Shown here one piece after another: positions 22,816 to 26,640 of a stretch of 43,673 nucleotides of DNA (the stretch's first letter is position 1; each line of letters starts with the position of its first letter). The translations under genes and the position numbers were made by a program. The notes beneath the pieces are model-generated. The model did no database searches and had not been told where the DNA came from. It worked only from the letters and a program-made list of their open reading frames with translations. This DNA comes from Candidatus Atribacteria bacterium (GTDB lineage: Bacteria; Atribacterota; Phoenicimicrobiia; Phoenicimicrobiales; Stramentimicrobiaceae), in the NCBI GenBank assembly GCA_029553585.1, contig JAKPKS010000060.1, forward strand, positions 1-43,673, given 5' to 3'.

Positions 22816-23394
22816 TTATTCTGAATTTGCTTCTTCTTGCCGTAACGGCTCTTTTTTCATCATTGTTTTTTGAATAAAAATAAATAGACCAACAAAAATC
22901 ATTATATCACCGACACTGATAAGTTCATTAGTCGGGAATGATTTTGGCATTGCAAAAACATCTCCCAAAAAAGCAAACAAAGTATTGTTATTCATCAAAA
23001 AATGAATTGTACTATTTTCTGTTCCTGAAAAACTTGCAGTATTGTTATTTCCTATCATACTCTGTTTGAACAATACCGGCATTTTTCCTCCATTCAAAAC
23101 AATGACAAAACCATTGAGCAATAATCCCAGAATAATATACTTAAAACCAGGTAATTTTATATTACGTATTGATACAAAGGTAAGTAGAAAATAGGAAATA
23201 ATTATTAAATGAGGACCATATTTTAAAATACTGGAATAATTCAGTAATCCAACTAACCATACTCCCAACCTCAATAAAAGGGCTATTGCAAATAGTGGGA
23301 TCCCTTCTATAGTAATATGGCTCAGTCTATCTAATTCACCCCCACGTAATAATCCTCCTGTTATACTAATAATAATTATTATTATATATAGCAT
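22816..23394 (-). CDS. DUF5317 family membrane protein
   Basis: A 192-residue membrane protein with about five hydrophobic helices. Features typical of DUF5317 are visible: an N-terminal GGLLRGG, a central LNGGKMPV, and a C-terminal LGDVFAMPKSF...ISVGDIMIFVGLFIFIQ. The family has no established function. It starts two bases after the HD-GYP gene stop, so the two are almost certainly co-translated, suggesting a shared role at the membrane. The end lies 25 bp before secA. Confidence 0.8.
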   Translation of the reverse strand: MLYIIIIIISITGGLLRGGELDRLSHITIEGIPLFAIALLLRLGVWLVGLLNYSSILKYGPHLIIISYFLLTFVSIRNIKLPGFKYIILGLLLNGFVIVLNGGKMPVLFKQSMIGNNNTASFSGTENSTIHFLMNNNTLFAFLGDVFAMPKSFPTNELISVGDIMIFVGLFIFIQKTMMKKEPLRQEEANSE

Positions 23395-23396
23395 TA

Positions 23397-24629
23397 TTAA
23401 ACCTTCTTTTCTTTTAATAAAGAAATAAACGTTTTTATCATTTCAGGATCAAATTGTTTTCCCGATTCATTTTCTAATTCTTCTAAAATATCTTCTTCCG
23501 AAAATTTTTTACGATAAGGACGATCTGAATTCATAGCATCATATGCATCAACAATAGCCAGTAATCGTGCAGTTTTAGGAATATCCTCCCCTTTCAGCTG
23601 GTTAGGGTACCCCTTTCCATCAAAACGCTCATGATGATACAATACTGTTTTGGAACATTTTTTTAAAAATTCAACTGATTCAATAATATTCGCTCCGATA
23701 ACAGGATGTTCTTTTATTTTCTCATATTCCTTTTCGGTTAATTTATCTTTTTTCCCCAGTATACGGTCTTCTATGCCAATTTTCCCAATATCGTGCAGGA
23801 TAGCGGCATATTCTAAATATTCAATCTCTGGTTCAACAAAACCCAGTCTTTTAGCCAATTGTACAGCCATCTGGGAAACTCTTTCTGAATGGCCAAGGGT
23901 ATAAGGATCTTTAGCATCTATGGTAGCAGCTAAGGTGCGAATAGTATCCAAATACATTTTACGCATTCTGGCATATAGTTCAAATGATTGCCGGGCTAAT
24001 AAAAGCGGTAAGAAAAACAAAAGAATTCCAAGAATACCAATCTGTACGTAAATAACAGCCATTATAAAGCCTAAGGGTGCCTCTGCAATATAGCTAGGAA
24101 GTACCTCTTTAATATTAATCCTGTATACTTTGCTAATATTCATTCCCGTATCCAGGGAAATCACTATAGCAACCAAAAAAGAATTAATCAAACAATAAGA
24201 AAAAGCACACAAGGCTGCTGGTCCCAAATAATTAAAAAAATTCTCTTTTCCTACCATACCTCCGGCAAGAAGGTATACTACACCAGCCAATCCTGAGGAT
24301 AAAGAATATTGAGAAGCATTAAATATTGATTTGTACCATGATCTTTCTTTTCTGAAAACAGTCCAGATAATACTAAAAAATTCCAAAACCATGGCTAATA
24401 AGGGACCGTAGACCAGGATTACAACAAAACTGATGGGAAAAGAAACGGAAATAAAACCTCCTACAGGTAATGAGACACGAGTATATTCGGCTAAAATTGA
24501 AATTATGATGAAAAACAATATGGGAAGCCATATTGTAGAGATTATGGGCATAGTGGGCAACAATAAGATAAACAGAGTGATGGATGATAAGGTAACCAAT
24601 GAAATATATATTTTTAACTTATAATTCAA
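23397..24629 (-). CDS. Membrane-bound HD-GYP domain protein
   Basis: A 410-residue protein. The N-terminal half (about 1-215) has six to eight hydrophobic helices forming a membrane sensor domain. The C-terminal half is an HD-GYP domain: TLGHSERVSQMAV, ILHDIGKIGIEDRIL, HPVIGANIIE, LYHHERFDGKGYP, IVDAYDAMNSDRPYR. In this family the domain hydrolyses cyclic dinucleotides, usually c-di-GMP; all metal-binding His/Asp residues seem present, with the GYP triplet intact. The start is TTG, about 8 nt after AGGGAG. Just upstream on the same strand are a small peptide gene and an inverted-repeat arm. Signal and dinucleotide are unknown. Confidence 0.88.
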   Translation of the reverse strand: MNYKLKIYISLVTLSSITLFILLLPTMPIISTIWLPILFFIIISILAEYTRVSLPVGGFISVSFPISFVVILVYGPLLAMVLEFFSIIWTVFRKERSWYKSIFNASQYSLSSGLAGVVYLLAGGMVGKENFFNYLGPAALCAFSYCLINSFLVAIVISLDTGMNISKVYRINIKEVLPSYIAEAPLGFIMAVIYVQIGILGILLFFLPLLLARQSFELYARMRKMYLDTIRTLAATIDAKDPYTLGHSERVSQMAVQLAKRLGFVEPEIEYLEYAAILHDIGKIGIEDRILGKKDKLTEKEYEKIKEHPVIGANIIESVEFLKKCSKTVLYHHERFDGKGYPNQLKGEDIPKTARLLAIVDAYDAMNSDRPYRKKFSEEDILEELENESGKQFDPEMIKTFISLLKEKKV

Positions 24630-24679
24630 CTTGCATTCTCCCTGACTGTTGAATTGATAGGTCGGTGACTCTTAATTAT

Positions 24680-24766
24680 TTACCAACTAAACTTTGCGCC
24701 ACCGGCCAGTAGCAGGGCCATGACACTGATTAAAAAGCTGATTAATTTAGCTTTATTAATTTTCAT
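24680..24766 (-). CDS. Small hydrophobic peptide, 28 residues (unrecognised)
   Basis: A short frame with an excellent ribosome site, GGAGGT five nt before the ATG, and a TAA stop. The peptide begins MKINKAKL (basic), has a hydrophobic core ISFLISVMALLLA, and ends GGAKFSW. This is the layout of a secretion-signal-like or membrane peptide with a short C-terminal tail. It lies within a 20-bp inverted repeat, downstream of a strong hairpin, and 50 nt upstream of the HD-GYP gene on the same strand. It could be an exported signal peptide, a regulatory leader peptide, or a small membrane partner of the HD-GYP/DUF5317 pair. I do not recognise the family. Confidence 0.6.
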   Translation of the reverse strand: MKINKAKLISFLISVMALLLAGGAKFSW

Positions 24767-24780
24767 GTCGCACCTCCACG

Positions 24781-24813
24781 GTTTTTCTTTGTTCTAAAAG
24801 AACAAGCAAAAAC
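24781..24813 (-). promoter_or_regulatory. Hairpin just upstream of the small peptide gene
   Basis: GTTTTT and AAAAAC close a stem, then after one C/C mismatch TTTGTTCT pairs with AGAACAAG (one G-T pair) around a 3-nt loop. On the minus strand it ends 3 nt before the GGAGGT region. It is preceded by a GC-rich segment with repeated GCG steps (24814-24831), unlike the AT-rich surroundings. It may control translation of the peptide. Confidence 0.6.
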
Positions 24814-24943
24814 CGCTACGCTTCGCTCGGGTACAAATTTTTTTGCTACTTATTACCCTCTCTTAATTGGCTTTATTTAAGAATCACCGACCTATCTGTT
24901 TATCTTTTAAACTGAAAACAATTTTTATATTATTGAATGTTTT

Positions 24944-25612
24944 TTATTTCACCAGTATTCTACGATTGACTGCCTGTAATATTGCCTTAACTACAGACTT
25001 GTGCTGATCATCATCTACGAGTGCAGCACCAATTAAATTCTCCTTTCCCTGTTCATTAATCAAATTAATTAATATTAAGATAATCTCTCTATCTTCCAGT
25101 TTTACTTTTTTAATCTCTTCTACCTGAAAAAATATTTTCCCGTTTAAAAAAGAGGTAATGGCCTCCAAAGTTGCCAGGGTTATGATATACTCTCTGTTTT
25201 TATCCCAGTTAACACAATTAATCTTACCTTCAAAAATTTTGTTATTATTTTCTAATTTGACTATTATCTGTAAATTATCCCCTTCAGCAGAAATTAAAAT
25301 ATCTGTAAATTTTAACCTTGGTGAAAGATTTTTTTCTTCTGTTACCTGGGCAATACTTATCTTACGATAATCAATGGCAATATTGTACTTAGCCATTAGC
25401 AGAGATTCCACATCGCGACTAATCTTTTTAGGACTGTAAAAATCTTTGGTGATAATATGGATTTCTTCAATCTCTTTATTCTCAGCTAAGACAATTTTAG
25501 AAAATAATACACCGTTTAAAGAATTAATCGAATTTTCAATATCTTTTGTCTTGGAACCGGGCTGAGGCGGAATAATAAAATTACGGAAATTATTTATGGA
25601 GACATTATTCAT
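24944..25612 (-). CDS. Conserved protein of unknown function, two-part
   Basis: A 222-residue soluble protein with no membrane helix. The N-terminal half shows SKIVLAENKEIEEIHIITKDFYSPKKISRDVESLLMAKYNIAIDYRKISIAQ, a pattern (in several short pieces) that I associate with unnamed conserved bacterial proteins; the C-terminal half (about 95-222) has alternating strands and ends VVKAILQAVNRRILV. The two halves could each be an alpha-beta domain of similar fold. It lies between hpf (21 bp away) and the small peptide locus. No function can be given. Confidence 0.65.
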   Translation of the reverse strand: MNNVSINNFRNFIIPPQPGSKTKDIENSINSLNGVLFSKIVLAENKEIEEIHIITKDFYSPKKISRDVESLLMAKYNIAIDYRKISIAQVTEEKNLSPRLKFTDILISAEGDNLQIIVKLENNNKIFEGKINCVNWDKNREYIITLATLEAITSFLNGKIFFQVEEIKKVKLEDREIILILINLINEQGKENLIGAALVDDDQHKSVVKAILQAVNRRILVK

Positions 25613-26423: not shown

Positions 26424-26640
26424 ATCCCTCCTTAGGCTGACCTGGTCTTTTACCCCACATTCGCCTGCTGAGAGGTTTGCTATCTTTTCACTACTACTCT
26501 TCTCCTGTTATATCTCTAAAACAGGGCAGGACTAACTCCAAAGCCGCACCATGCTCGGTAACTAATAATCGTTACCTTACGTGGGTCGTTTTGCCTGCGG
26601 CTGGCATCGACTTTCAACCACAGCCCAAAGGAGGGAAATC
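26424..26640 (-). ncRNA. raiA: raiA RNA (structured noncoding RNA upstream of hpf/raiA)
   Basis: About 217 nt between comF and hpf, GC-richer than its surroundings and closed by a long-range stem: minus-strand CCCTCCTT-TG-GGCTG (from 26635) pairs with CAGCC-T-AAGGAGGG (26439-26426). Internal pairs include GGTAAC-N8-GTTACC (26558-26577) and GCCGCA/TGCGGC. There is no credible protein frame. The position, just upstream of the hpf (raiA) gene and after comF, is that of the raiA motif RNA known from Firmicutes and Actinobacteria. Its cellular role is not settled. Identification rests on position and visible pairing, not on a covariance-model match. Confidence 0.8.

Follow-up and report, generated by a model that had tools for sequence, protein, structure and literature searches.

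A short membrane peptide gene within a structured leader RNA, linked to an HD-GYP phosphodiesterase and DUF5317: a candidate peptide-controlled c-di-GMP switch in Atribacterota

In the peptide pheromone systems Agr, Phr and SHP/Rgg, and in the lipoprotein-signal-peptide pheromones, a short precursor with a basic and hydrophobic leader carries a small variable tail next to a conserved residue, and the peptide gene adjoins a receptor gene. The same plan was found in 43,673 nt of DNA from a Candidatus Atribacteria bacterium (the whole stretch analysed, hereafter the window), in which a 28-codon peptide gene adjoins the gene of a candidate receptor. Among GTDB contigs, the closest relatives of the genome that were found were Atribacterota MAGs. 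Unlike in the pheromone systems, however, the candidate receptor here belongs to the HD-GYP phosphodiesterases and has a membrane domain resembling the S-components of ECF transporters, the tail comprises 4–7 residues only, and identical peptide genes can stand in tandem. No exporter, AgrB or modifying enzyme was recognised with the peptide system. With 25–36 residues, a single hydrophobic segment and a membrane-protein partner, the peptides also resemble MgrB (on PhoQ), KdpF and CydX, from which they differ by their presence in many phyla under one fixed signature, their tandem arrays, and their tie to a c-di-GMP enzyme and DUF5317.

On the basis of its Pfam MASE9 and HD_5 domains and its canonical motifs, the HD-GYP protein of the window is a member of the MASE9-HD_5 membrane-sensor phosphodiesterases, and for none of these was a dedicated peptide gene or a DUF5317 partner described in the open PubMed Central literature; nor did the open part of PubMed Central hold anything relevant on DUF5317, MASE9 or HD-GYP with a peptide pheromone. 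The predicted sensor fold is that of the ECF S-components RibU, BioY and ThiT, from which the domain is set apart by its fusion to a phosphodiesterase and by an identity of 10–17% to the solved chains matched. The mRNA of the peptide gene, in turn, recalls the hok and aapA mRNAs in the 5′–3′ helix closing round a tiny membrane-peptide ORF, and departs from them in its constant enzyme partner and broad conservation. The cues sensed by membrane c-di-GMP enzymes are mostly obscure, and here a candidate ligand with a simple signature is encoded beside a candidate sensor. A 2022 review of c-di-GMP counted thousands of sensor architectures, with many sensor domains still unrecognised (PMC8846402). 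The reading that we favour, at somewhat short of an even chance, is that the locus encodes a peptide-controlled c-di-GMP switch, the peptide being the ligand of the HD-GYP sensor.

Table 1. Features of the peptide locus, in positions of the window.
Feature	Position	Strand	Evidence and remarks
DUF5317 membrane protein, 192 aa	22816..23394	(-)	PF17248 match
Membrane HD-GYP protein, 410 aa, TTG start	23397..24629	(-)	ORF and Pfam
N-terminal membrane sensor of HD-GYP protein	23964..24629	(-)	MASE9 match; AlphaFold2 model ECF S-component-like
P1 helix 3′ arm, TAATTAAGAGTCACCGACCTATC	24656..24678	(-)	starts just past the peptide stop codon
Peptide gene, 28 codons, MKINKAKLISFLISVMALLLAGGAKFSW	24680..24766	(-)	ATG start; purifying selection, family conservation, conserved register
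Shine-Dalgarno GGAGG	24773..24777	(-)	6 nt 5′ of the peptide ATG; invariant in alignment A3
P2 hairpin	24779..24815	(-)	directly 5′ of the Shine-Dalgarno; 17-nt arms, 88% complementary; f4–f7 equivalent covaries
Leader motif CGAGCGAAGCGTAGCGG (AGCGRAGCG motif)	24813..24829	(-)	invariant or nearly so in alignments A3, A4 and A9; also in f257 leaders
P1 helix 5′ arm, GATAGGTCGGTGATTCTTAAATA	24874..24896	(-)	inverted repeat, folding, covariation
Companion protein, 222 aa, no Pfam match	24944..25612	(-)	tied to the system by synteny only

The start of the HD-GYP gene came 50 bases after the stop codon of the peptide, and a gap of two bases divided the end of HD-GYP from DUF5317, with secA next beyond DUF5317; the 5′ side of the peptide gene was occupied by the companion protein and an hpf-type gene. 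The initial annotation had described a 28-codon gene with a good ribosome site, adjoining a membrane HD-GYP protein with DUF5317 two bases further on, and all of this was borne out by the coordinates, the Pfam matches (HD_5, MASE9, PF17248), the GGAGG before the ATG and the low pN/pS ratio of the frame. It had said nothing of a structured RNA, of tandem arrays or of the fold of the sensor.

The companion protein belongs to a family of ca. 210–227 aa, without Pfam match and with an EIHVLA-type motif, which precedes the peptide in Atribacterota and in family f257 (members at window 24944–25612, L168 1143–1769, L170 1351–1986 and L172 2296–2931). Upstream of the peptide locus, a raiA RNA (Rfam RF03072, 173.7 bits) was located at window 26428–26633 (-), between ComF-like and hpf/S30AE genes.

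In an alignment of 19 same-order homologues, pN/pS was 0.107 in the peptide frame, and 0.97 and 2.5 in the shifted frames. Synonymous changes dominating in the peptide frame only indicate more than a chance ORF, and the 28-codon ORF is, judging from this substitution pattern, a real gene. The same pattern leaves hardly any probability to the idea that the frame is not a gene and that the RNA alone is conserved, since the RNA helices described below are real but the peptide is also kept in lineages where no such helix was seen. Across 19 loci of the window's order (families f1 and f2) the peptide was nearly identical, whereas the HD-GYP and DUF5317 proteins were only ca. 55–80% and ca. 33–65% identical, respectively, to those of the window; in other Atribacterota families the peptide sequence differed, yet was alignable (MAKVLSILLGLLAIVLASGAGFSWRP type). 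Within the peptide, pN/pS was 0.056 for codons 1–24 and 0.47 (pN 0.29) for codons 25–27, the Ala-to-Trp stretch. Such variation in an otherwise fixed peptide is the pattern expected of a specificity tail, as the peptide-controlled switch would have it, although it may merely mean weaker constraint.

Comparison of 50 distinct peptides resulted in the signature [KR]-X16-A-x-Phi-[KRSTH]-W-x(0-3)-stop. From the last basic residue to position four before Trp the distance was exactly 17 residues in 49 of the peptides; this position was Ala in 49 and Ser in the other, the residue before Trp was K, R, S, T or H in all 50, and the distance from Trp to the stop varied by 0–3 codons. The family was present in some 15 groups at family level, drawn from several phyla: f1, f2, f4–f7, f20, f26 (which we take to be Thermus-like, judged from gene content), f53, f83, f108, f167, f252 and f257, and, with a partial peptide, f236. 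The peptide had no match in Pfam, NCBIfam or PDB, and the family is undescribed. Standard gene finders do not reach down to a peptide of this length, which is absent from gene catalogues and has probably gone unnoticed in many genomes.

As in pheromone precursors, the peptide is a selected frame with a signal-like leader, judged by composition, and the conserved Ala stands where a signal peptidase would cut, at a putative site. A competing explanation, with a substantial minority share of the probability, is that the peptide serves permanently as a small subunit: as a lone transmembrane helix, it would join the HD-GYP sensor and/or DUF5317 for stability or activity and carry no message. KdpF, CydX and MgrB are microprotein precedents for such a subunit. 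Both neighbours are membrane proteins, and the peptide is conserved over its full length with an ungapped [KR]-17-Ala-3-Trp register in all lineages, as is usual for helices that have fixed contacts and an interfacial Trp. The residues beside Trp, on the other hand, change fast within one order, which a small subunit would not lead one to expect.

Co-occurrence was sampled in ca. 550 distinct genomes, most of them MAGs, with DUF5317 as bait, so that peptide–HD-GYP pairs without DUF5317 are under-counted. DUF5317 was above cut-off in 55 of 386 sampled genomes, i.e. in a minority of bacteria. A script run over the fetched loci placed an HD-GYP gene directly before DUF5317 at 53 loci, and the peptide was 5′ of HD-GYP in 44 of the 44 loci with enough upstream sequence; the nine others, without peptide, were cut short by contig ends, which left under 350 nt on the upstream side, and additional positive loci fell outside the distance rule of the script. 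The background of the peptide filter, with its chance rate estimated on the same fetched loci, was low (83 matches in 1,143 kb on both strands, mostly true peptides). In family f257 (G432, G434, G436) the companion protein came first, followed by the peptide and then HD-GYP, and DUF5317 was located elsewhere. Two genomes (G241, G244) had DUF5317 without a neighbouring HD-GYP gene, and no peptide was found there. A search for short frames upstream of homologous HD-GYP genes, proposed in the initial annotation as a check, was hence positive wherever it could be made, and coding constraint was strong. Of the “small signalling system” suggested there, peptide, HD-GYP and DUF5317 stand as a conserved unit, and signalling is the most economical reading of the sequence evidence; “GGAK-type tail” proved too narrow a description, as A-x-x-x-W is invariant while GGA and K vary.

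Copy number provided further evidence. In the closed genome G390, six peptide ORFs encoding an identical protein followed one another at a period of exactly 104 nt, with HD-GYP and DUF5317 directly behind the array; every ORF had a separate ribosome site, and the 18-nt leader was identical in all six. Two or more copies were also present in G062, G386, G395, G409, G423, G430, G150 and G223, giving nine genomes with G390, and the two diverged copies in G423 shared the LANLKWH end. In G095 and G370 the peptide and DUF5317 were both present and unlinked to each other, and no HD-GYP gene was downstream of the peptide. Tandem copies, together with copies away from HD-GYP, suggest that the peptide product probably acts in trans, and both would be unusual for a stoichiometric subunit; against an argument from dose, however, slippage can create tandem copies without selection.

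The same copies weigh on the idea that the ORF is a leader peptide, whose translation or ribosome stalling would control read-through to HD-GYP in cis, the peptide itself being disposable. This idea accords with the position of the ORF in an mRNA leader, the enclosing helix in Atribacterota and f257, the hairpins with T-rich tails after the ORF elsewhere, and the Trp codon near the stop. It is nevertheless improbable, as the copies in G095 and G370 are not confined to a position in cis of HD-GYP, tandem copies recur in nine genomes with up to six ORFs that have separate ribosome sites, the N-terminus is conserved as well, and the spacing of Trp and stop is variable.

Outside Atribacterota, hairpins were often located 3′ of the peptide ORF, and promoter-like TTGAC...TATAAT or similar sequences, read by eye, were directly upstream of the peptide in f257 and in the Thermus-like loci. 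Together these suggest that the peptide is probably transcribed as a separate unit, and more strongly. Unlinked peptide genes (...LLLAGGANLKWW) were observed at L122 1305–1379 and L123 3996–4070, beside glycoside hydrolase and MCP genes, with a strong hairpin 3′ of each.

In the window, leader and ORF are surrounded by a 23-nt inverted repeat (P1 arms, 91% complementary), and the folding z-score of the region was -7.6 in reference to shuffles. The plan was common to all Atribacterota families: an enclosing P1, the AGCGRAGCG motif, P2, the Shine-Dalgarno, the ORF, and the P1 3′ arm a few bases past the stop. In f4–f7, compensatory changes were found at 17 of 21 tested pairs, and 92.8% of cells paired versus 77.5% in shuffles and 44–56% after a slide of 1–3 columns; this pairing percentage is biased upwards, because the structure that served for counting had been derived from single sequences, and more weight attaches to the double changes. 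The covariation score of f4–f7 was reached by none of 500 shuffles, support in f1 and f2 was weaker because these vary less, and RNAalifold independently recovered both P1 and P2. Family f257 had the same layout with another P1 sequence (GGACGGCG... / ...CGCCGTC). By this covariation the helix around the Shine-Dalgarno and ORF is real, and it was present in Atribacterota and one further family (f257). The leader RNA may serve to shield the short mRNA, or to control translation, as the P1 3′ arm would come within reach of a ribosome stationed at the stop codon.

RNA model R1 gave one strong match per genome in Atribacterota families f4–f7, always at the peptide locus, and weak matches (E 0.04–0.6) in f1, f2 and f257, yet on the peptide leader. 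A general riboswitch at other genes was ruled out by this tie of the R1 matches to the peptide locus. A known Rfam RNA was likewise ruled out, with nothing above gathering score at 24600–24980 (best chance match 19 bits, cut-off 41.8), and so was a repeated mobile element, the 281-bp element being present in single copy in the genome.

Closed, silent mRNAs are known from the toxins Hok and AapA, and a type I toxin-like membrane peptide, silenced in this manner and by chance beside HD-GYP, would be small and hydrophobic, with a 5′–3′ helix closing round its ORF and tandem copies, as observed here. This explanation is very improbable, however: rather than a stand-alone module, the peptide is constantly tied to one enzyme in about 15 families (44/44 loci), the protein is near-identical within the order under strong selection, and the 104-nt array leaves no space for antisense genes.

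The HD-GYP protein returned Pfam matches to HD_5 (E 1.1e-38) and MASE9 (E 5.2e-11), and contained the HDIGK and HHERFDGKGYP catalytic motifs characteristic of HD-GYP phosphodiesterases; judged by these motifs it should break down c-di-GMP, which can be made in this genome as four GGDEF proteins are encoded. For the AlphaFold2 model of the N-terminal domain (pLDDT 83.8, pTM 0.80), the best 20 PDB matches by Foldseek were all ECF transporter components, nearly all of them S-components, including TmRibU, FolT, BioY, ThiT and one CbiM. Probability was mostly 1.00 and TM-score on target ca. 0.55–0.71, with a best E-value of 0.017 and none below 0.001. The sensor domain models as a six-helix ECF S-component fold. 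As S-components bind small extracellular ligands, the HD-GYP sensor domain is plausible as a small-ligand receptor.

The amplification of gene dose, the unlinked copies and the three variable residues that precede an invariant Trp in an otherwise fixed framework point to a trans-acting, specifically recognised product, and the constant linkage to a membrane HD-GYP protein with a ligand-receptor-like domain makes the latter the candidate recogniser. In the peptide-controlled switch, the short peptide would be translated from a structured mRNA of its own and then enter or cross the membrane. Its basic end would stay inside, and the 4–7 residues that follow the conserved Ala would form an outer tail (x-Phi-[KRSTH]-W-x), which may remain anchored or be freed by signal peptidase at the Ala. 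The conserved Ala and the fast tail favour cleavage and release, whereas the rigid 17-residue register favours a peptide staying in the membrane as a helix with exposed tail; the fixed spacing is stricter than in usual signal peptides and, suiting a resident helix, speaks against an exported signal. Sensing of the tail by the S-component-like domain would alter c-di-GMP phosphodiesterase activity, and DUF5317 may help in the membrane, e.g. as a partner or processing factor.

A role in cell-to-cell communication may be envisaged. In its widest form the proposal is doubtful: an ancient, undescribed peptide-to-c-di-GMP communication system, in which a Trp-containing tail of 4–7 residues, dosed by copy number and made from a dedicated structured RNA, would be either set free or put on display, and its receptor would be the S-component-like part of a fusion with a c-di-GMP phosphodiesterase. 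DUF5317 would add a new membrane protein to this system, acting as partner or in processing. We know of no peptide signalling in the thermophilic and subsurface bacteria that carry the peptide. If true, this would be the first peptide signal for Atribacterota and several thermophile lineages, and would provide a context for DUF5317 and a new RNA family embedding a peptide gene.

The DUF5317 ORF matched PF17248 with an E-value of 1.3e-33, and has five predicted helices (structure model pLDDT 80.6) and nine invariant residues (G90, N94, G103, P106, D145, S160, G162, D163, G169). Foldseek queries against PDB and viral models returned no structural relative of the model, which leaves a processing role unsupported. 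An LspA-like signal peptidase, considered for the two invariant Asp in the LGD and SxGD motifs, was rejected as unsupported, with no LspA match in Pfam (to E 10), the PDB profile search or Foldseek.

In G244, which has neither peptide nor HD-GYP at the locus, a divergent DUF5317 was directly before an apparent CdaA-type diadenylate cyclase (L086 6176–7571), and DUF5317 may partner other cyclic-dinucleotide enzymes, too. In the 7.3-Mb genome G375, DUF5317 was followed by a different small ORF, MKKFEGIKYSRIVINAIIVASVVVALTSGYKLGG, possibly a variant peptide, and then by a GGDEF-HD-GYP protein (L075 2050–4769). Tandem duplicates of DUF5317 were present in family f252 (L165 1148–2432), with doublets in G417, G421, G429 and G431.
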